Assembly (NCBI RefSeq): GCF_000016185.1
Contig: NC_011420.2
Coordinates: 1 to 64,000 of the forward strand
Reading direction: 5' to 3'
From: Rhodospirillum centenum SW
GTDB lineage: Bacteria > Pseudomonadota > Alphaproteobacteria > Azospirillales > Azospirillaceae
Length of the DNA stretch: 64,000 nucleotides
The position numbers and the translations under genes were made by a program. Positions 26,400 to 46,070 of this stretch are shown here, piece after piece. A model generated the notes under the pieces. The model was not told where the DNA came from. It saw only the letters and a list, made by a program, of their open reading frames with translations, and did no database searches. Every line of letters starts with the position of its first letter. The stretch's first letter is position 1.

Positions 26400-26789
26400 T
26401 CACTCATCGAACACGGTATCCCGCTGCTCGACCCAGGGCGCCAGGGCCGCCGCCGCCAGACGGTCCAGAGATAAGACGCAGGGGCACCGGTGGATCAGCA
26501 GGTGCTCCAGCACTTCCGGCGACAGGTAGGCCAGCCGCAGGAACCGGCTGATGAAGGGCACCGTGACGCCCTCAGCCACAGCGACGTCCTTCAGGGTCGC
26601 CGCCTCGCCGCGGTCCAGGCGGCGGCGCCAGTCCCAGGCGCGGGCGATGGCGCGCAGCAGTCGGGGATCGGGTGTGGCCCCCTCCGACGCCGCTTCGATG
26701 TTGGCAGGCGGCAGTATGCGGGGACGGCCGTTGCGGCGCTTGACCGCGAGCGGAATGACGACGCGGATGGTCTCGGGTGCGGAACTCAT
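26400..26789 (-). CDS. HTH protein linked to serine recombinase
   Basis: 129 residues. The central segment (LKDVAVAEGVTVPFISRFLRLAYLSPEVLEHLL, about 68-100) looks like a ParB/KorB-type helix-turn-helix. It overlaps the recombinase gene by 4 nt, so it is translationally coupled to it. Proteins of this type sit directly after DUF2924-associated serine recombinases in alphaproteobacterial mobile DNA and may act as an accessory or directionality factor; that role is inference. Confidence 0.75.
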   Translation of the reverse strand: MSSAPETIRVVIPLAVKRRNGRPRILPPANIEAASEGATPDPRLLRAIARAWDWRRRLDRGEAATLKDVAVAEGVTVPFISRFLRLAYLSPEVLEHLLIHRCPCVLSLDRLAAAALAPWVEQRDTVFDE

Positions 26790-28126
26790 GCGACGGCCTC
26801 CGGGGTGCGCGGGGTTAGCATCTCGCGCACCACCGAGCCGAGTCCGGCGGTGCGCAGGTCGACGGCGATGCCGTCGGCGGTGACGGTGACCCGGTCGACC
26901 AGCAACCGCACCAGACGGGCCTGTTCGGCCGGGAACAAGGCGGACCAGACCTCGTCGAACCGGTCGAGGGCGGTGACCACGTCATGCTCCGTCACGCCGG
27001 CGTCGTCCCGGCGGGCTGCGGCCACGGTCTGCGCCACGATCTCGGGCGTCCGGACGAGGCGGCGCACTTCCCGCACCACAGCGTTCTCGACCATCTCCGC
27101 CGGCAGCCGCTGGGGTGCCGTGGACTCCGTGCCGGACATCCGCCCGCGGATGACATCCATCGAGGCGTAGTAGCGATAGAGCCGGCTGCCCTTCTTCGTG
27201 GCGGTCGGCGTCATGGCCGTGCCCGTCGGGCCGAAGATCAGGCCCTTCAGCAGGGCGGGCGTCTGCGTCCGCGTGGCGGCGGCGCGCGAGCGCGGACTTT
27301 CCTGCAGGATGCCGTGGACCCTATTCCACAGATCCTGATCGATGATCGCCGCATGCTCACCGGGGTAGGACGTGCCCTTGTGGACCGCCTCGCCGAGATA
27401 GACCCGGTTATTCAGCAGTTTGTAGAGAAAGCCCTTGTCGACCGGCTTGCCGCGCTTGGTGACGACGCCCTCGGCGGCCAGTTGCGCCACCAGGGTGGTG
27501 GCCGATCCAAGCTGGACGAAGCGCTCGAAGATCATGCGGATGGTGGCGGATTCGGCCTCGTTCACCACCAGCTTGCGGTCTTTCACGTCATAGCCGGTGG
27601 GCACGTAGCCGCCCATCCACATGCCGCGCGCCCGCGAGGCGGCGAACTTGTCGCGGATGCGCTCGCCGATCACCTCGCGCTCGAACTGGGCGAAGCTGAG
27701 CAGGATGTTGAGCGTCAGCCGGCCCATCGAGGTGGTGGTGTTGAAGCTCTGGGTCACCGAGACGAAGGTGACGCCGTGGCGGTCGAACACCTCGACCAGC
27801 CGAGCGAAATCCATCAGGGCGCGGGACAGCCGGTCGATCTTATAGACCACCACCACGTCCACCAGCCCGGCCTCGATATCGGCGAGCAGGCGTTGCAGGG
27901 CCGGGCGCTCCAGCGTGCCGCCGGAGAAGCCGCCGTCGTCGAAGCGGTCGCGCAGCGCCACCCAGCCCTCAGCCTTCTGGCTGGCGATGAAGGACTCGCA
28001 GGCCTCGCGCTGGGCGTCGAGGCTGTTGAACTCCATGTCCAGACCTTCCTCGCTCGACTTGCGGGTGTAGATGGCGCAGCGCAGCCGACGCTGGACCGGG
28101 GTCGCCGGCGTGCTCGTCCGCCTCAT
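26786..28126 (-). CDS. Large serine recombinase (site-specific integrase)
   Basis: 446 residues. The N-terminal resolvase domain (about 15-165) has the nucleophile motif YTRKSSEEG, FNSLDAQREACESFI, FDDGGFSGGTLERPALQRLL, VVVYKIDRLSRALMDF and LNILLSFAQFEREVIGERIRDK. The recombinase domain (about 180-300) follows with GYVPTGYD ... LLNNRVYLGE. It probably integrates and excises this mobile region. It is third in an operon of four genes, each overlapping the next by 4 nt. Confidence 0.94.
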   Translation of the reverse strand: MRRTSTPATPVQRRLRCAIYTRKSSEEGLDMEFNSLDAQREACESFIASQKAEGWVALRDRFDDGGFSGGTLERPALQRLLADIEAGLVDVVVVYKIDRLSRALMDFARLVEVFDRHGVTFVSVTQSFNTTTSMGRLTLNILLSFAQFEREVIGERIRDKFAASRARGMWMGGYVPTGYDVKDRKLVVNEAESATIRMIFERFVQLGSATTLVAQLAAEGVVTKRGKPVDKGFLYKLLNNRVYLGEAVHKGTSYPGEHAAIIDQDLWNRVHGILQESPRSRAAATRTQTPALLKGLIFGPTGTAMTPTATKKGSRLYRYYASMDVIRGRMSGTESTAPQRLPAEMVENAVVREVRRLVRTPEIVAQTVAAARRDDAGVTEHDVVTALDRFDEVWSALFPAEQARLVRLLVDRVTVTADGIAVDLRTAGLGSVVREMLTPRTPEAVA

Positions 28127-37069: not shown

Positions 37070-38388
37070 CCGGCATCATCCCCTCCGCCACCCAGGCCCG
37101 CGCCATCGCTGCCATCCACGACTGGTTCGAGAACCGCACCCATGAACAGCCGGTGTTCCGTCTCTTCGGCTATGCCGGCACCGGCAAGAGCACCGTATTG
37201 AAATTTGCGCTGGACGATTTGGGCATCGATCCGCACCGCTCCGGCAAAGATGGCGGCGCGATGGTGCCGGGCGTGGTCACCGCCACCTTCACCGGCAAGG
37301 CGGCGCTGGTGCTGCGGCGCAAAGGCACGCCCGCCCGCACCATCCACAGCCTGATCTACCGCGTGATCGAGGCGACCGAGGAGGAGATCGAGGCGGCGCG
37401 GCGGAAGATCGCCGACGCCGAGCAGAAGGCGCGCGCCCTGTCCGGCTTCGAGCGCGTCACCGCCGAGGCGGCGATCGAGGCCATGCGCCAGGGGCTGAAG
37501 GACATGCGCAAACCCCGCTTCGACCTCAACCCCGACAGCGACGCCGCCCACTGCCGGCTGATCGTGCTAGACGAGGTGTCGATGGTGGGCGCCGAGATGG
37601 CCCGCGACCTGCTGTCCTTCGGCAAGCCCATCCTGGTGCTGGGCGACCCCGGCCAGTTGCCGCCGATCAAGGGCGAAGGCGCCTTCACGCAACAGGCCCC
37701 CGACATCATGCTGACCGAGATCCACCGGCAGGCGGCGGAGAGCGCCGTCATCCGGCTGGCCACCTGGGCACGGGAGGGCCGGCCGATCCCCATGGGCCGG
37801 CATGATGATCACGTCTGGAAGCTGGCCAAGACGGCGGTGACGCCGGACCAGTGCCTGCGCGGCGGACAGGTGATCTGCGGCCTGAACGCCACCCGGCTGC
37901 AACTGAACAACGCCCTGCGCCGCGCCGCCGGCCTCAATGGCGGCTGGTTTCCGACCGGACCGGCCGAGAAAGTCGTCTGCCTGAAGAACCGCAACGACCT
38001 TGGCCTGATCAACGGCATGTTCCTGACGCTGGACGACATCGTGGACGAGGGCGGCCTGTACTTCTCCGCCGCGGTGACCGACGAGGACGGCAACGCCATC
38101 GGCGCCGTCGGCCCGGACGGCCGGCACAACCGGCTGCGCCTCTACAAGGGGCACTTCGAAGATCACCACGCGCTCGACAAGGACCGCAACGACCGGGACT
38201 GGAAGGAAAAGAAGTATCTGATTGAGGCGACCTACGGCTGGGCCATCACCGGGCACAAGGCCCAGGGCAGCCAGTGGGAGAACGTCATCGTCTGGGACGA
38301 CGGGCTGGGCCGCACGGCGGAGGACCGCGCCCGCTGGCTCTACACCGCCATCACCCGGGCCGAGAAGGGACTGGTGATCCTGGCATGA
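37066..38388 (+). CDS. Dda/RecD-like superfamily 1 helicase
   Basis: 440 residues from ATG 37066. Motif I FGYAGTGKST (about 34-43), motif II LIVLDEVSM (about 165), motif III LVLGDPGQLPPIKG (about 190), and the C-terminal UvrD-like block YGWAITGHKAQGSQWENVIVWDD ... WLYTAITRAEKGL (about 390-440) are all present. Homologous to T4 Dda and RecD2, 5'-3' DNA helicases used in phage replication. Overlaps nuclease and primase genes by 4 nt each. Confidence 0.92.
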   Translation: MTGIIPSATQARAIAAIHDWFENRTHEQPVFRLFGYAGTGKSTVLKFALDDLGIDPHRSGKDGGAMVPGVVTATFTGKAALVLRRKGTPARTIHSLIYRVIEATEEEIEAARRKIADAEQKARALSGFERVTAEAAIEAMRQGLKDMRKPRFDLNPDSDAAHCRLIVLDEVSMVGAEMARDLLSFGKPILVLGDPGQLPPIKGEGAFTQQAPDIMLTEIHRQAAESAVIRLATWAREGRPIPMGRHDDHVWKLAKTAVTPDQCLRGGQVICGLNATRLQLNNALRRAAGLNGGWFPTGPAEKVVCLKNRNDLGLINGMFLTLDDIVDEGGLYFSAAVTDEDGNAIGAVGPDGRHNRLRLYKGHFEDHHALDKDRNDRDWKEKKYLIEATYGWAITGHKAQGSQWENVIVWDDGLGRTAEDRARWLYTAITRAEKGLVILA

Positions 38389-40913
38389 TCGACCTCAACG
38401 ACGTCTGGCAGCCGCCACCCCGGTTCGACCTGCGACAGGTCCGCGACAGGCTGGCGGCGTCCGCGCCCGACTGGCTGCCGCCGCTGTTCCCCAGGGGCCG
38501 CCTCTCCGCCGACCGACGCACCCTGCGCTGTGCCGATCTCTCCGGCCGGCCGCCGCGCAACGAGGGCTCCTGCGTGCTGCACCTGGTGGGCAGCCATGCC
38601 GGCTGGGGTTTCGACTTCGCCACCGGCGAGAGCGCCGGACCCATTGACCTGATCCACTACGCCACCGGCCTGGAGGATGGGCCGCTGTTCGAGGAGGCGG
38701 TCCGGCTCGCCCGTATGGACCTGCCAGTGTCGGCGCCGCGGCCCGCTTCGGGCAGGCCGGACCACAGCCTGGAGGTCGCCCGCATCCTCGACGGCTGCCG
38801 CCCGCTCGCCGGCACCGTGGCCGAAACCTACCTGCGCAGCCGGGGACTGGCCGATCCGGGATCGCCGGACCTGCTCTATCACGACGATCTCGCCGACCGC
38901 GACACCGCGCGCGGCTGGCCCGGCCTCGTGGCGGTGGTGCGCGACGGCGCCGGCCAGCCCACCGGCGGCATCCACCGCACCTTCCTGCTCGACGACGGCT
39001 CGTGCAAGGCGCCGCCGGGCAAGAAGATGCTGGGGCCGATTGCGAATGGGCATGTCCGGCTGGCTCCCCTTGGCGCAGACGGTCATCTGGGCGTGGCCGA
39101 AGGTATCGAGACGGCGCTGGCCGCAACGGCGATCTTCGGCATTCCCACCTGGGCCGGTCTGTCCGCGGACGGCGTGCGCCGGTTTCAATGGCCGGAGGGC
39201 ACAAGCCAAATCACCATCTTCGCCGACGCCGGGGACGCTGGCCGCCAAGCCGCCGCTGCGCTGGCTGACCGGCTGAACCGGGCGGACATCCTCAACTCTA
39301 TCGTCGTCCCGCTGCACGGCGATGATTTCAACGATGATCTGCGGCAGGGGAAGAGTGCCGCTGACTATAGCCTGGAGCCTGCCGCGCAACCTGCCCGGAC
39401 GCTCAACACCCTGGCGGAGATGGAAGCCGCCGCCCTCGCGCTCACCTGTCCGCCCGACATGACGGACCTTGCCCGCCTTCTGGGTGCCATCGCCACCGCG
39501 CGGCTCGACCCCGTGCCCATCCGGCACCTGCTGACCACCATCAAGGCCACCACCCGCATCCCGGTCTCGGTGCTGGAGAAGCAGCTTCGCGACCTGCGCC
39601 GCCGGCTGAATGGCGGCGGCGGTGACGCGCCGGCGATCCGTTCGCCCTGGGCCGCCATGCTGCGCATCGGCGATGACGGCACGCCGGAGCGCAACGAGGC
39701 CAATGTCATCACCGCCCTGTCCAATGATCCGGCCTTCGCCGGGGCCCTGGTCTTCGACGAATTCCGGCAGGAGATTCTGGCGGCCCGCCCGCTGCCCTGG
39801 GAAAGCGCCCCGTTCCCGGCCGCGCGCCCCTGGAATGCCACCGACGACGTGCGCTGCGCCGAATGGCTCCAGCGCCGCGAGATCAACGTCACGCCCCTGG
39901 TGGTCAGCCGCAGCGTCGGCGCGGTGGCCAACGACATCCGCGTCCATCCGGTGCGTGACTATCTCGATCATCTGCGCTGGGACGGCACGGCGCGGCTGGA
40001 GACCTGGGCCATCCGCTATCTTGGCGCCAAGGACACGCCGCTCAGCCACGCCTTCGGCGCCCGCTGGCTGATCTCCGCCGTCGCCCGCATCCTGCGGCCG
40101 GGCGCCAAGGTCGACCACATGCTGATCCTGGAAGGGCCGCAGGGTACCGGCAAATCGACCGCGCTGAAGGTCCTGGCCGGCGAGGACTGGTTCACCGACG
40201 AACTGGCGGAGATCGGCAGCAGGGACTGCGCCCAGCAGATGCGCGGCGTCTGGATCATCGAGATCGCCGAACTGGACGCCATCGGCCGGGCCGAGGTCGA
40301 GCGCATCAAGGCCTTCCTGACCCGCACCACCGACCGCTACCGCCCGCCGTACGAGCGCTACGTCATCGACGTGCCCCGCCAGTGCGTCTTCGCCGGTTCC
40401 GTCAACCCGGACACCTACCTGCGCGACGAAACCGGCAACCGCCGCTTCTGGCCGCTGCGCTGCGGCCGCATCGACCTGGACGCCCTGCGGCAGGACCGCG
40501 ACCAGCTTTGGGCCGAGGCGGTGGCCCGTTTCCGCGACGGCGCCATCTGGTGGCTGGACGATCCCGATCTGATCGCCGCCGCTAGGATCGAGCAGGAAGC
40601 CCGCTACCAGGGCGACGCCTGGGACGCCCGCATCGACCGCTGGCTGACCCACGAGCGCCGCCGCATCAACCGCGGTTATGCCGGCTACGACGACTGGCGC
40701 GACGAGGAGGTCGAGCGCGACCGGCCGGTCTGCGACGTTTCCGTGGGTGAAATCCTGGAAGGGGCGCTGGGGATTGAAACGGGAAAGTGGTCACGGGGCG
40801 ACCAGATGCGCGTGGCGGCGTATCTGAAGGCCCGGCAGTGGGAGCGGTACAAGGCAGGAGCGGGTGGTCGGCGGGAATGGCGGTATCGGCGGCCGACTTG
40901 GCTGGCCGATTGA
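38385..40913 (+). CDS. Primase-helicase (TOPRIM plus VapE-type ATPase)
   Basis: 842 residues, MIDLND start. The N-terminal part carries a primase-like CHC2/DUF7146 region and a TOPRIM core: GVAEGIETALAA (about 236) and ITIFADAGDAGRQAA (about 275). The C-terminal virulence-associated-E helicase has Walker A EGPQGTGKSTALK (about 583) and ELDAIGRAEVERIKAFLTRTTDRYRPPYERYVIDVPRQCVFAGSVN. Such fusions prime and unwind DNA for phage replication. It is the last gene of the early operon and ends 1 nt before the convergent TOPRIM gene. Confidence 0.92.
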   Translation: MIDLNDVWQPPPRFDLRQVRDRLAASAPDWLPPLFPRGRLSADRRTLRCADLSGRPPRNEGSCVLHLVGSHAGWGFDFATGESAGPIDLIHYATGLEDGPLFEEAVRLARMDLPVSAPRPASGRPDHSLEVARILDGCRPLAGTVAETYLRSRGLADPGSPDLLYHDDLADRDTARGWPGLVAVVRDGAGQPTGGIHRTFLLDDGSCKAPPGKKMLGPIANGHVRLAPLGADGHLGVAEGIETALAATAIFGIPTWAGLSADGVRRFQWPEGTSQITIFADAGDAGRQAAAALADRLNRADILNSIVVPLHGDDFNDDLRQGKSAADYSLEPAAQPARTLNTLAEMEAAALALTCPPDMTDLARLLGAIATARLDPVPIRHLLTTIKATTRIPVSVLEKQLRDLRRRLNGGGGDAPAIRSPWAAMLRIGDDGTPERNEANVITALSNDPAFAGALVFDEFRQEILAARPLPWESAPFPAARPWNATDDVRCAEWLQRREINVTPLVVSRSVGAVANDIRVHPVRDYLDHLRWDGTARLETWAIRYLGAKDTPLSHAFGARWLISAVARILRPGAKVDHMLILEGPQGTGKSTALKVLAGEDWFTDELAEIGSRDCAQQMRGVWIIEIAELDAIGRAEVERIKAFLTRTTDRYRPPYERYVIDVPRQCVFAGSVNPDTYLRDETGNRRFWPLRCGRIDLDALRQDRDQLWAEAVARFRDGAIWWLDDPDLIAAARIEQEARYQGDAWDARIDRWLTHERRRINRGYAGYDDWRDEEVERDRPVCDVSVGEILEGALGIETGKWSRGDQMRVAAYLKARQWERYKAGAGGRREWRYRRPTWLAD

Positions 40914-40914
40914 A

Positions 40915-41643
40915 TCATCCGGAATCCCCCTGGGTAGGCAAAATATGGTTGTGCTGCAGGTGAAGATAATCTCTCAGGGAACAGATCAATCGAATCAAGT
41001 CGATCACATCATCCAAAGTTGCATACTTCTCTGCGAACTCTCTCAAGGCCGTTTTTCCATCTCGGCTTAGATCCCGGTGTGTCCGTCCCCCGATCGTTGT
41101 CTCATGAACCACAGCGTTAGGATAGTCGGCCACGAAAGCCCGCAGAAAATCTGGCGAGAACAGGTCTTCAACTTCCCAGTCCAGCCGCCTGAAGTCGTAG
41201 TTGAGCGTTTCGGCTCTTTTCTCGACGACCGATCCTGGAGAGCCGCCGGCTATGGGCATGACGGGATGCAGCAGAAAGACATCTTCATAACGCACTACGC
41301 GTGGATCGAAATTACAGGCGCGTTTTAGGGCCCGGCGACCGGCTTCGTCATTGTCGAAAAGGCCAATGAAGCGGTACCTTTTCGCTCCCGCGGGTGTCAG
41401 GTCGTATTCAGCGAGCTGTCGTGCCGCGCTCAGCCGGCGGTTGACACCATCGACTCCGCCGTCATCTCCATCACCTGCTGCCAACACCCCGAAATCGTTG
41501 AAAACGTCGATTCCTCGTTCTTCTCGGTACAGTTTTGCGGCAAGTTTCAAGAAGAGGACGTCGCTTCGCCCTTCCAAGATAACGTTCCGTTTCTGGACGC
41601 TCCACCCGATCTGCTGAGCCCAGTCTTCGACGAGTCCCGCCAT
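40915..41643 (-). CDS. TOPRIM-domain protein, partner of STAND-like NTPase
   Basis: 242 residues. The TOPRIM core is visible: VILEGRSDVLFLKLAAKLY (catalytic Glu about 24) and YRFIGLFDNDEAGRRALKRA (DxD at about 97-99), the arrangement of OLD-family/DUF4435-type nucleases. The remainder (WEVEDLFSPDFLRAFV ... TREFAEKYATLDDVIDLIRLICSLRDYL) is helical. It starts 3 nt after the stop of the large NTPase gene. By analogy with PARIS (AriB) and OLD systems it may be an effector nuclease released when the NTPase senses infection; that is inference. GC is lower than in flanking phage genes. Confidence 0.75.
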   Translation of the reverse strand: MAGLVEDWAQQIGWSVQKRNVILEGRSDVLFLKLAAKLYREERGIDVFNDFGVLAAGDGDDGGVDGVNRRLSAARQLAEYDLTPAGAKRYRFIGLFDNDEAGRRALKRACNFDPRVVRYEDVFLLHPVMPIAGGSPGSVVEKRAETLNYDFRRLDWEVEDLFSPDFLRAFVADYPNAVVHETTIGGRTHRDLSRDGKTALREFAEKYATLDDVIDLIRLICSLRDYLHLQHNHILPTQGDSG

Positions 41644-41646
41644 GGC

Positions 41647-44600
41647 TCAGTTCGCCGTCAGGGGCCGCAGGAACGGGCCGTTGTGGCCGAAGGAGATATA
41701 TCCATTAATAACCATTCCTGGTCGAAGTTTCTCCCGGCCGAATTCCTGGGGCCGGAAAGTGACCTCTACGCCCTGCATTTCGCTGACCCTGGCGCGGTGA
41801 CGGCCGTCGCCGGTCTGGCTGATGCGTGCGCGCACCTGCCGGCGATCATCCCTGTCGCGCACACGCAGCCACTTCAGCCGCTCCGGCACCTCGACGAAGT
41901 GTTCCTCCCGCTGCCAACGTTGGCGAAGCTCGTGGAACTTGCGGGCCGCTTCGTGATGCCGGTCGCGCTGGTGCAGAAGCACAGCAAGTTCAAGGTCCAT
42001 CTGCGGAGTGAAAGTGCTGGAACTCCCCTTAAGGGACTCCAAAAATTCAAGCTGCTGAGCAAAATCCTGAGGGCGATCCATGCAGCAGAGGAGGTATTGA
42101 AGGCGCACGGCCTGAGCGTTGCTTCGCAAGATTGGGTTTGCGAGATGTTCCGCCGCTCTGATGCGATTGGTGGCCGGATAATCGTTGAGTTCCATCCCTT
42201 CGAAACGACGTACGCCTTCCGCCAGTGATTTAAGTGCAACGATGATCGCGTCGCTTTCGGTCTGTGGGTTGCTCCTTTCGTCGAATTCGCCGGCTACTTC
42301 CAAGAGGACGTCGAGTGCGGCCTCAGCCAGCCGCCCGAGCGCGAAACGGCGTGCCTCGGCGGCGCCACGCTGCATCGCAGCATACACGAGCCCCAAAACT
42401 TCGATCGCATTGCCCGCGGTGGCCGTCGGGTCGCTGCGGGCGCCGGTCAGAAGGTCGCGCGCGTACGTTTCTACAACGAATGAATTGTCGGGGCTGAGCC
42501 GGTAGGCGCGTCGCGTCGCATCCCGTGCCTTCGTCTGCAGATCCTGGATACGCTCTTGCTTAGCGCGGCGCTGCACCTCGACCTCGGCCAAGTCATGATA
42601 GGCGTGGGCGAGAGAGTTCAGCAGATTCATGTCGGATTCGCCGTCGGCGTCACCGGTGATGCTGAGGGCCGTTTCAATGTCCGAGATGGCGCGCGAAAGC
42701 AACTCCGCCCGCTCGTCGTCCGAAATATCGAAAGCGGACTTATCCTTGGCAATGCGTCGACGCGAGATCGCGGCATGATGGAGAAATGCCCGGCTTGTTG
42801 TCCGAAAGGCACGGGGCATCTCGTCCAACGCCACCAGAGCCTCCCGCCAGTAGGGGGCAAACAGCGCATGCCCATGGCTGGGGTCAATTTTGAAAATGGA
42901 GGTGGCGAACGCTTCAGCTACCTCACGCAGGCCCCTGTGTGCAAGGCCGGGCAGGCGGGCAATCCGCTTCAATACGAGTAGCCGGAGATGCTCAGGGTTG
43001 GTGGCCTCCCCAAATCCCGCGGCTTCGAGTGCAGGGCGGTCATAGAAAAGCGCCGTCAACAGGAAACGGCCAAGCAGGTCATGAATGAGCGCCCAGTAGC
43101 GCTGAGTGCTATCGATGCCCCGCACGATGCCGAGGGCGCCGAGCCCGGACTGAATGTCGCACAGCTTGTCCGCGGTCGGCCAATCGTGCGAGGCGGGCAG
43201 CAGTACCTCTGGCAGCGGCCGGTGAACGGTGCTCATCGCAGCGATATCGATGATGGCGTGGCGAAGAACTGGATCGGTGACTTTCTCGTGAAACTGATAG
43301 TAGAGCCAGGACTGGATGGTTTCTTCCATGTCGAACAGGCGCCGGAGCCAGAACGACAGCGCGATCCAGAAGGCGGCATAGCCATTCCCCGGGCCAACGA
43401 TTGAGCGCTGAAGGAAGTTGTTCCACTCAGCTTCCGACCGGACCGTTCCATGTTTCAGCAAATATCGGTTGAGGTGCCGTCCCAATTCTACAGCGTCCGG
43501 CTTCGACACCTGATGGGTCAGGACCGCCAAGCGTTTAAACCGGCTTCCTTCATAAATCGCGATCGGCAGGACGCTGTCCGTGACGAACACGATGCACGCC
43601 CGGCGCCCGCTCTTTTCAAGCTCGCGCGAGAAATGGATCAGGTCATCCTCGTGGCCGTTCAAGGCGGTGCGGTCGAAGACGATCAGCCAAGGAGCCTGAT
43701 AGAGACGCGTGTCCGCCCCGATCCCCGTCTTTGTGGCCGTTTCCATACAACGCGACATATACGAGGTGACTTCGACACTGCTCGGTGTAAAAGGCGCCGC
43801 CGCAGCCAGGAGCGTCGGATACCCCTCGCTCGCGGTTTCCCAGGCCAAGTTGCGGATGAAGGTGGTCGCGCCGGCACCGGACTCCGCGCTGACGTAGAAC
43901 AGGGGATTTGATTCGCCCGCCTCTCGGTCGAGCTTTCGAAGCGCCCGCTTGAGGATGTTCAGCGCGTCGGGCTCGCGCGGCCACGGCATTCCTGCGGCAA
44001 AGGGCCGCCAAGAGGAACGCGGATCTTTGAAAAAACCCTCGACATCTTCGACGCGCAGGTCGTCCGGAAGAAGCGGAATGAGGTGTTCCTCCGTGAGGAG
44101 CTCGTAGCGTCCCAAGAGCGGGTGTTCGGGATCATCGAGACCGGTGACGTCGAGTCGGTGTAGGGTCTCGGTGGCGTCGCGCAGGCGAAGAATCTGCCGC
44201 TCGTCGCGGCCTTCCATGTAGCGACGCACCAGATCGTCGACGAAAGCCCCGGCGGCTGTCGTGACAAGGCTGATTGTCCGCGCGCCCGTCTCGGCTCTCC
44301 ACGCGGCCGCTTTGTCCGTGGCGTCGGAGGCATCGCTGACGACGGTTGTGAAGGAGCGGAAGCCCTCCGCCCACAACCCTGTTAGCTCCTGCGGCAGGGC
44401 GAAAGTCGGACCACCTAGGACTACGAGATGCTTGATCGACCGCCGCTGGAGTTCCTCCAGCATCGTCAGTCGCCGGGTAAGGGCGGCTAGCCCCGAATTC
44501 CGGGTGCCTCCGCGCCCGTTGAGCAGGAACACTGGAAGGCTACGAGGTGGTAGCGGGACATCAGACGGGTTGGTGTCGACGATGTGAATTATGCCGCGCC

Positions 44601-44832
44601 GTCTGACGAGGGGACTCTCCACCGACTCCGTCGCCTCAAGCGCGGTGATCAGCGCTTGGTCGGAAGATTCACTGAAGACGAAGGCCCACGGCAGGCCAAG
44701 AACCTTGGCCGCCTTCTCCGGTCCCGCAGCAGCAGCGAATGGCTCCTGGAGCCAGACCGCAACGTCGCGTGAGTCAAGTTCGGCGAATAGCGACGCCGGT
44801 GCTTCGGCTTGGTGGTGAACTCCGTCGCTCAT
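41647..44832 (-). CDS. STAND-like P-loop NTPase, candidate defence sensor
   Basis: 1,061 residues from ATG 44832; the frame stays open to 45231 but the extra N-terminus runs through the 9-bp repeats. Domains: an unrecognised alpha/beta N-terminal domain (about 20-230; VFLLNGRGGT, KHLVVLGGP), a P-loop ATPase (about 285-560) with YVSAESGAGATTFIRNLA (about 313-330, no Walker A lysine) and Walker B-like PWLIVFDRT (about 381-389), a long TPR-like helical array (about 640-985), and a C-terminal beta domain (RARISQTGDGRHRARVSEMQGVEVTF...ISFGHNGPFLRPL) resembling an OB fold. Directly followed by a TOPRIM gene. Fits a STAND-type sensor/effector; no known system recognised. Confidence 0.75.
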   Translation of the reverse strand: MSDGVHHQAEAPASLFAELDSRDVAVWLQEPFAAAAGPEKAAKVLGLPWAFVFSESSDQALITALEATESVESPLVRRRGIIHIVDTNPSDVPLPPRSLPVFLLNGRGGTRNSGLAALTRRLTMLEELQRRSIKHLVVLGGPTFALPQELTGLWAEGFRSFTTVVSDASDATDKAAAWRAETGARTISLVTTAAGAFVDDLVRRYMEGRDERQILRLRDATETLHRLDVTGLDDPEHPLLGRYELLTEEHLIPLLPDDLRVEDVEGFFKDPRSSWRPFAAGMPWPREPDALNILKRALRKLDREAGESNPLFYVSAESGAGATTFIRNLAWETASEGYPTLLAAAAPFTPSSVEVTSYMSRCMETATKTGIGADTRLYQAPWLIVFDRTALNGHEDDLIHFSRELEKSGRRACIVFVTDSVLPIAIYEGSRFKRLAVLTHQVSKPDAVELGRHLNRYLLKHGTVRSEAEWNNFLQRSIVGPGNGYAAFWIALSFWLRRLFDMEETIQSWLYYQFHEKVTDPVLRHAIIDIAAMSTVHRPLPEVLLPASHDWPTADKLCDIQSGLGALGIVRGIDSTQRYWALIHDLLGRFLLTALFYDRPALEAAGFGEATNPEHLRLLVLKRIARLPGLAHRGLREVAEAFATSIFKIDPSHGHALFAPYWREALVALDEMPRAFRTTSRAFLHHAAISRRRIAKDKSAFDISDDERAELLSRAISDIETALSITGDADGESDMNLLNSLAHAYHDLAEVEVQRRAKQERIQDLQTKARDATRRAYRLSPDNSFVVETYARDLLTGARSDPTATAGNAIEVLGLVYAAMQRGAAEARRFALGRLAEAALDVLLEVAGEFDERSNPQTESDAIIVALKSLAEGVRRFEGMELNDYPATNRIRAAEHLANPILRSNAQAVRLQYLLCCMDRPQDFAQQLEFLESLKGSSSTFTPQMDLELAVLLHQRDRHHEAARKFHELRQRWQREEHFVEVPERLKWLRVRDRDDRRQVRARISQTGDGRHRARVSEMQGVEVTFRPQEFGREKLRPGMVINGYISFGHNGPFLRPLTAN

Positions 44833-45130
44833 GAACGTATTCCGGAGGCTGTGCGAGCGGGCGTATGGTCCGACCGTTGCTCTGGGACAACGCGGTCCGA
44901 GAGGACTGCGAACGGGGCCGTGGCGGCATGCCACTTCCGAGGTGGGGATAGTCCGCTTTTTTCTGGCGCAGTTCAAGATCAGGAATAGGAGCTTGCAAGG
45001 CAGGGTGGTGAAAAAGGGGGGACAACGGGAAGGATAGTTTACTAGATCGAGCGACCGCCGGTCTGACGCTGCTTGCTCTGGGAACACCCCGGCCCTAACC
45101 ACGCCCATGCGGCTCCCGACATCGGCAGAG

Positions 45131-45495
45131 GTTGGGACCAAACCTGCCGTAGTCACCACGGATTTCCCTTCCCCTATGGTCCCAACCGGTCCCAACCTCT
45201 TGATGGGGGTTGGGACCGCTGAAACCAGCATGAATGCTGGCTTTGTCCCAACGGTCCCAACGGGGGGGGGGTGAAAGTGTTCAGGGGGCCGAGAAAAATG
45301 CTATGTTGAGTTGTCTTTTATGGTGTTTATGGCAGCAACAACGGGAAAATCTTTCTGGGCTATGAGGTGTCCAACCCCCCGTTGGGACCAGGGACCGTTG
45401 GGACCAAGCGCCCGCCCTCGCCGGAACTTTTTGCGAACATTTCCGCCGAAACCGGATTGCATCTGATGCCCCGCCGCAGTAAAAGGGTTGGGACC
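45131..45495. repeat. Cluster of GTTGGGACC repeats, possible replication origin
   Basis: The 9-mer GTTGGGACC or its complement GGTCCCAAC occurs at 45131, 45178, 45188, 45209, 45253, 45381, 45397 and 45487 (plus near matches at 45244 and 45366), in both orientations. An A/T-richer stretch lies at about 45290-45350. This resembles iterons with a melting region. It lies in the 695-nt gap between the NTPase start and the RuvC-like gene, which otherwise holds no supported gene. Confidence 0.7.
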
Positions 45496-45527
45496 AAAGC
45501 CGAAGGCCCACGACTCCGTGAGCCTTC

Positions 45528-46070
45528 ATGATGACTACTCTGTTTCCGGTTCCGGCTCTGCCGGGATCTGGGCCGGCTGCTCTGGCGGTCCTGCCCGCCA
45601 CGCTCGTGGTGCTCGCCCTCGATCTCGGATCGACGATGGGCTGGGCGCTACGCTCCGCTGACGGTGCCATCGTCTCCGGCACCGAGGCGTTCCGCCAGGA
45701 TCGCTGGTCGGGCGGTGGCATGCGCTACCTGCGCTTTCGCCGCTGGCTGGGTGAGGTCGCCACCATGACCGGCGGCCTTGGCCTCGTCGTCTATGAGGAG
45801 GTCCGCCGCCACGTTGGCACCGATGCCGCCCACGTCTACGGCGGCTTCCTCGCCACGCTGACCGCCTGGTGCGAGGACCGGGGTATTGCCTACGAAGGCG
45901 TGCCGGTCGGCACCATCAAGCGCTTCGCCACTGGCAAGGGCAACGCCGGCAAGGACGCGGTGATCGCCGCCGTCCGCGCCCGCGGCTTTCAGCCCGCCGA
46001 TGACAACGAGGCCGACGCCCTGGCGCTGCTGCTCTGGGCCATCCAGCGCCGGGCGGGAGGCGCGCCGTGA
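45528..46070 (+). CDS. RuvC-like Holliday-junction resolvase
   Basis: 180 residues. VVLALDLGSTMGWALRS (first Asp about 31), LVVYEEVRRHVGTDAAHVYGG (Glu about 87) and QPADDNEADALALLLWA (Asp pair about 160) give the RNase H-fold catalytic set of phage RuvC proteins. Start chosen at 45528. It opens the second early gene cluster and overlaps the next ORF by 4 nt. Likely resolves branched phage DNA before packaging. Confidence 0.88.
   Translation: MMTTLFPVPALPGSGPAALAVLPATLVVLALDLGSTMGWALRSADGAIVSGTEAFRQDRWSGGGMRYLRFRRWLGEVATMTGGLGLVVYEEVRRHVGTDAAHVYGGFLATLTAWCEDRGIAYEGVPVGTIKRFATGKGNAGKDAVIAAVRARGFQPADDNEADALALLLWAIQRRAGGAP

Follow-up and report, generated by a model that had tools for sequence, protein, structure and literature searches.

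The alpha protein of phage P4 reportedly combines primase, helicase and origin binder in a single polypeptide, and its winged-helix domain is said to bind short iterons. This winged-helix origin-binding domain is cited in PMC10516667. In SaPI and PICI elements, the origin lies 3′ of the rep gene and consists of two iteron sets around an AT-rich core, a layout stated to be known from no other bacterial replicon (PMC6092414). SaPI Rep reads its origin via its C-terminal domain, apparently as two hexamers, and SCCmec Cch2 is a self-loading helicase that binds repeats just 3′ of its own gene (PMC7581432). The defence hotspots of P2 and P4 are fixed places in the phage genome that hold many different defence systems (PMC9122126).

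Here we describe a short-repeat array that is very probably a prophage replication origin bound by the winged helix of a VapE primase-helicase; binding, melting, loading and firing are all inferred, as there are no replication or binding data. The array resembles the SaPI/PICI pri-rep-ori module (SaPI Rep/PriRep1, 7pds) in that the putative origin follows a primase-helicase gene on its 3′ side, its AT-rich core has a set of short iterons on either side, and the helicase is likewise an SF3/D5 family member that recognises DNA through a C-terminal domain. Here, however, the array is carried by a full-size prophage that encodes terminase, portal, capsid and integrase, up to 6 kb of defence cargo can separate initiator from origin, and the iteron sequence has diversified and would be readable from two or three residues. 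As in P4 alpha, a single polypeptide unites the primase, the helicase and the inferred origin binder and includes a winged-helix domain, a likeness drawn without sequence comparison. Cch2 is a helicase of related type with repeats just 3′ of its gene, but it has only three short direct repeats, and PMC7581432 describes no diversification series. The interval described here is, like the P2/P4 hotspots, a fixed phage-genome place with many different defence systems; theirs lie by cos (P2, P4) or elsewhere, whereas this one lies between an initiator gene and its origin in prophages of Alphaproteobacteria. Our literature search, limited to open-licence papers, found no description of such diversified prophage origins.

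An iteron array in a complete prophage

The window, that is, the whole stretch of 64,000 nucleotides analysed, carries a prophage with its own integrase, terminase, portal and capsid/head genes, which rules out a PICI satellite in the sense of a small, helper-dependent element. Other prophage genes encode Sak4-like and Cas4-like proteins, a Dda-like helicase and methylases. The features relevant here are as follows.

26786-28126, minus strand: integrase with a serine-recombinase-like match
38385-40913, plus strand: VapE/D5-type primase-helicase (DUF7146, Toprim_3 and VapE domains), the proposed initiator; solved relative PriRep1 (7pds)
40915-41643, minus strand: cargo gene 1, 242 aa, no family found
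41647-44832, minus strand: cargo gene 2, iSirtuin plus nSTAND_NTPase7, between initiator gene and proposed origin, as judged from relatives without cargo
45131-45495, no strand: iteron array, proposed prophage replication origin (8 copies against 0.6 expected; place and mirror layout as in relatives)
45131-45139, plus strand: iteron 1, outer left, exact 9-mer
45178-45186, minus strand: iteron 2, exact 9-mer
45188-45196, minus strand: iteron 3, exact 9-mer, inverted repeat with iteron 4 (GGTCCCAACC-10 nt-GGTTGGGACC)
45209-45217, plus strand: iteron 4, exact 9-mer
45244-45252, minus strand: iteron 5 (GTTGGGACA), one mismatch
45253-45261, minus strand: iteron 6, inner left, exact 9-mer
45262-45380, no strand: central core between the half-arrays, proposed melting segment, with its AT-rich part at 45292-45321
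45381-45389, plus strand: iteron 7, inner right, exact 9-mer
45397-45405, plus strand: iteron 8, exact 9-mer
45487-45495, plus strand: iteron 9, outer right, exact 9-mer
45497-45527, plus strand: hairpin AAGCCGAAGGCCCAC-loop-GTGAGCCTTCAT between array and RuvC-like gene, same sequence in relatives
45528-46070, plus strand: RuvC-like Holliday junction resolvase, conserved right neighbour of the array

The VapE protein matched the VapE-like helicase domain PF05272 (E = 5e-82) and 7pds (E = 2.6e-42 by sequence, 5e-16 by fold), which places it in the VapE/D5 primase-helicase family.

A sequence-only reading of this DNA had reported eight copies of a 9-mer in both orientations within 365 bp, in a gap without genes. 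All eight copies of GTTGGGACC are exact and lie where it placed them, five on the plus strand (starts 45131, 45209, 45381, 45397 and 45487) and three on the minus strand (45178, 45188 and 45253); the one-mismatch iteron 5 was not among its eight. The count expected by chance in the whole window is 0.62 (dinucleotide shuffle; maximum 4 in 100 shuffles). Nor is the 9-mer dense elsewhere, which would have spoken against an origin: the host genome (4,355,543 bp, one contig) holds 19 copies, 8 in the array and 11 outside it. The only pair outside the array, at 3,718,892 and 3,719,108 (L350, 3718892-3719116), lies 216 bp apart on the same strand, in surroundings that resemble coding DNA (by eye only).

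No convincing gene was found in the gap at 44833-45527. A 1194-aa open reading frame from 45231 on the minus strand was rejected as a gene of its own, being the upstream run of the NTPase frame; the Pfam domain of the NTPase begins 11 residues past the ATG at 44832. The array is noncoding and outside the VapE gene and so is not a lambda-type origin, in which iterons lie inside the initiator gene. The A/T-rich stretch that had been noticed beside the repeats (73% AT at 45292-45321) in fact lies within the array, between its halves. In the window the right half-array is degenerate relative to its counterparts in other phages of the group, and fourfold-site GC skew shows no clear flip at the array. 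Scans of the array region found no sigma-70-type promoter and no terminator-like site, and an Rfam scan gave no match. That the untranslated leader of the NTPase genes runs through the repeats, as had been suggested, could not be shown, with the start codon 299 bp from the first repeat and no such promoter in sight. Control of cargo expression by a repeat-binding protein remains possible, without data.

Place and layout of the array are conserved

VapE relatives were taken from viral contigs and from Rhodospirillales, Acetobacterales and Rhodobacterales genomes. In about 165 alphaproteobacterial relatives, an array lies between the VapE/D5-type primase-helicase gene and the RuvC-like gene. A pattern scan of viral contigs gave about 35 loci with 3-10 copies inside 600 bp, many with the same spacing and nearly all beside relatives of the window's RuvC and VapE genes. 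Absence of the array from phages sharing the primase would have counted against the origin interpretation; such phages have it, and those without the exact 9-mer carry a different short-repeat array at the same place. Searching sequenced phages with the array DNA by similarity gave nothing useful, because the letters diverge too fast, and isolated phages in the collection have no close VapE (best about 40%). Nine perfect tandem GGTCCCAAC repeats at L002:13736-13816, at the end of a 30% GC contig, are unrelated and possibly an assembly artefact.

We assigned repeat types from DNA alone, ahead of any protein analysis: A, GTTGGGAC (56 loci); B, GTGGGAC (37); C, GTTGGTGAC (22); D, GTGGTGAC (14); E, GTTGGAC (7); F, GTGGGAAC (3); G, GTGGTGCA (1 locus); and H, GTGGGGCC (5). 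Thirty loci stayed untyped because no class reached four exact copies in them or their sequence ended too soon. All types share a mirror-symmetric layout ('<<><<', central gap, '>><>>'), with ten or so sites across about 275 bp and iteron steps of 8-11 and 17-21 bp; the median length of the central gap is 82 bp (about 80-120 bp overall; 113-119 bp in the window's clade). Averaged over 129 arrays with this layout, AT content is 0.41-0.57 in the central 100 bp versus 0.35-0.38 at 125-225 bp left of centre. To the right, an imperfect hairpin, AAGCCGAAGGCCCAC-loop-GTGAGCCTTCAT (GAAGGCCCAC...GTGAGCCTTC), is kept across repeat types and lacks a T run.

As in PICI/SaPI-type origins, the array can lie directly 3′ of the primase-helicase gene, less than 150 bp away in 77/134 typed relatives; in 44 more than 1 kb of cargo intervenes, and the window's distance of 4.2 kb is likewise due to cargo. 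In 130/134 relatives the distance from the array to the RuvC-like gene downstream of it is also within 300 bp, and replication initiators often control nearby promoters. VapE might, on these grounds, bind the array mainly as an operator for switching the RuvC operon on its right side, and perhaps also the cargo on its left, without starting replication. We consider this improbable: some ten sites over about 275 bp, arranged as mirror half-arrays around an AT-richer core, look like an origin and are large for an operator, the region has no sigma-70-type promoter, and the inferred binder is a replicative helicase whose solved relative comes from a replicon in which the origin follows the helicase gene on the 3′ side.

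Neighbouring iterons in inverted orientation could pair into perfect hairpins of 9-10 bp, so one may also imagine them acting as RNA, in a leader attenuator or a small RNA. This is scarcely credible given the lack of an Rfam match and of a terminator-like site; moreover, all copies switch letters together by lineage and track a protein, in place of the independent drift of paired stems. A replication origin remains our preferred interpretation of the array.

The VapE tail tracks the repeat type

VapE residues are numbered with the isoleucine encoded at 38388 as residue 1. The following parts of the gene, all on the plus strand, bear on repeat type.

40737-40892, plus strand: C-terminal winged-helix part, residues 784-835, predicts repeat type
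40794-40796, plus strand: codon R803, R with GTTGG and K with GTGG (134/134 typed loci; 23/23 independent pairs)
40815-40817, plus strand: codon A810, S/A/T mostly with GTTGG and G with GTGG (MI/H 0.76)
40851-40853, plus strand: codon K822 in the wing strand, K/R with GGGAC-type and Q with GGTGAC-type 3′ half (134/134 typed loci; 11/11 independent pairs; 31/31 new loci)

In leave-one-out nearest-neighbour prediction of repeat type, the last 50 residues of VapE scored 0.96, the rest of VapE 0.61 and RuvC 0.60. VapE columns 860-900 reached 0.97; windows starting before column 840 gave 0.43-0.79 and those from there on 0.88-0.97. Other protein families with more than eight rows scored 0.45-0.70, the methylase 0.45. 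Since the 3′ end of VapE often adjoins the array, a control for linkage was needed. At the 37 loci where over 1.5 kb of cargo separates VapE from the array, the VapE tail still scored 0.98, versus 0.69 for the array-adjacent first 50 residues of RuvC, and physical linkage as the sole cause was rejected.

Single residues follow each half-site. Position 803 is R with GTTGG in 74 and K with GTGG in 60 of the typed proteins, without exception, and its MI/H values for the 5′ and 3′ halves are 1.00 and 0.00. Position 822, equally without exception, is K/R with GGGAC-type repeats in 100 and Q with GGTGAC-type in 34, the MI/H values being reversed (0.00 and 1.00). Position 810 (S/A/T versus G) follows the 5′ half, and columns outside the winged helix reach at most 0.48 and 0.66 for the 5′ and 3′ half. 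Some of the 134 typed loci are the same phage from two collections and thus not independent. We therefore tested the switches on a VapE tree from which the winged helix was left out, counting independent pairs on well-supported branches. On this tree the 5′ half switches 27 times and the 3′ half 12 times; concordant pairs number 23/23 for the 5′ half and 803 (p = 2.4e-7) and 11/11 for the 3′ half and 822 (p = 0.001). The repeat letters and a few VapE amino acids change together in related viruses. The specificity of the origin is, on covariation only, set by the C-terminal domain of the initiator.

Because VapE residues track the letters of the array, we infer that VapE binds it, although binding data are lacking; the unspecified phage early protein first suggested as binder is thereby replaced by the primase-helicase. 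The array could still be an operator or centromere for another early protein (a repressor, RuvC or a ParB-like methylase), the VapE correlation reflecting linkage only, as VapE tail and array are often adjacent and apparently exchanged together. We regard this as highly improbable: RuvC, across the array and closer to it in cargo-bearing loci, and the methylase both predict far worse, and each half-site is tracked by single residues of the winged helix but not by its other residues.

We applied AlphaFold2 to 44 natural VapE C-terminal halves. The model was only fair (mean pLDDT 68; 74-91 across most of the tail), with the best PDB fold match to PriRep1 with dsDNA (7pds). The tail was predicted to form helices and then two strands at the C-terminus, an arrangement from which we take the label winged helix. 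Position 803 falls at the start of the last long helix and 810 inside the same helix, and the first strand of the wing contains 822. In this model, 803 and 810 would thus belong to the recognition helix, and 822 to the wing; contacts with DNA are inferred.

New loci, exceptions and distant relatives

Two further scans yielded 42 VapE loci after removal of duplicates, and a clear array was present in 31. All 31 obeyed the 3′ rule, and 28/31 the 5′ rule. One clear exception to the 803 rule, L290, has K803 with S810 and GTTGGTGAC repeats, and two of the 31 belong to a GTAGG class not covered by the two-state rule. GTAGG repeats were seen at L283, L336, L113, L114, L199, L224 and L155, with both R803 and K803 proteins. 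Among 22 loci with loose arrays, the 3′ rule broadly holds and the 5′ half is blurred in some; L094 and L102 have R803 with mixed GTGG/CTGG/ATGG. Because of L290, the GTAGG class and the blurred arrays, 803 does not determine the 5′ half on its own, and 803 and 810 jointly fit it better than 803 alone.

Distant relatives were left out of rule-making. L055 (45% identity) fits the rules, with R, A and R and ten GTTGGGACC, as do the Pseudomonas phages vB_Pae_U5 and Haddon (about 40%), with K, G and R and GTGGGACA. APSE-1, Marinobacter PS3 and Corynebacterium StAB have an array 3′ of VapE whose letters are partly outside the rules; 3′ of the VapE gene of the distant phages Acidovorax Aval and Variovorax VarioGold, no array was seen.

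Proposed exchange of origin types and defence cargo

In pairs with similar VapE N-termini (86-98%), winged-helix identity is 96% when both members share a repeat type and 70% when their types differ. Comparing L066/L067 (type A) with L068 (type D), the VapE DNA is 89-100% identical per 150 nt until the last 150 nt, where identity is about 70%; the hairpin and RuvC to the right are alike again. From these few pairs, the segment from winged helix to origin looks as if it were exchanged as a unit, cargo included.

We found 69 distinct cargo stretches between the VapE gene and the array. Examples are 40915-44832 in the window and those at L010, L017, L021, L032, L049, L066, L075, L093, L185, L196, L225 and L288. 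About 30 cargo proteins were scanned for defence models, with matches to IetAS, RmrA, CBASS phospholipase and E1-E2, OLD/Gabija-like, PD-T7-1, PtuA/PDC-M01, Lamassu and AbiEii. About half of them, the window's two included, matched no PADLOC model, and the 242-aa protein matched nothing in Pfam or PHROGs either. An insertion of the NTPase genes right beside the array had been surmised from this DNA alone; judged by gene order in relatives, the pair is hotspot cargo lodged between initiator and origin.

Discussion

What the comparison of sequences provides is the array with its conserved place and layout, together with the close match between its letters and VapE residues 803, 810 and 822. With the array conserved and its type following the DNA-binding domain of the primase, the origin first proposed for this locus is strongly supported, its firing being inferred. 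We propose that the C-terminal winged helix of the upstream-encoded VapE would bind the short repeats. As the half-arrays face opposite ways around the AT-richer core, two helicase rings could load in opposite orientation; the loaded rings would then melt this core, and replication would start at the array in both directions. By analogy the system works like SaPI/PICI origins, its function as an origin being inferred; it differs by the complete prophages, the diversified repeats and the cargo in between.

Whether alphaproteobacterial prophages carry many mutually incompatible origin types in a small code (803/810 for the 5′ half, 822 for the 3′ half), swapped as cassettes of winged helix, cargo and origin, is in our view evenly balanced; under that proposal, since defence cargo is part of the cassette, the hotspot would travel with origin identity. 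Phage origin and initiator could be paired from sequence alone, and the rules seem to extend to some Pseudomonas phages at 40% identity. The approximately 130 natural initiator-origin pairs, with their repeated independent switches, constitute a data set for following the joint change of a protein and its many DNA sites, and the interval that separates initiator from origin supplies defence systems, both known (IetAS, CBASS, Lamassu, AbiEii, OLD/Gabija-like and PD-T7-1) and unrecognised.
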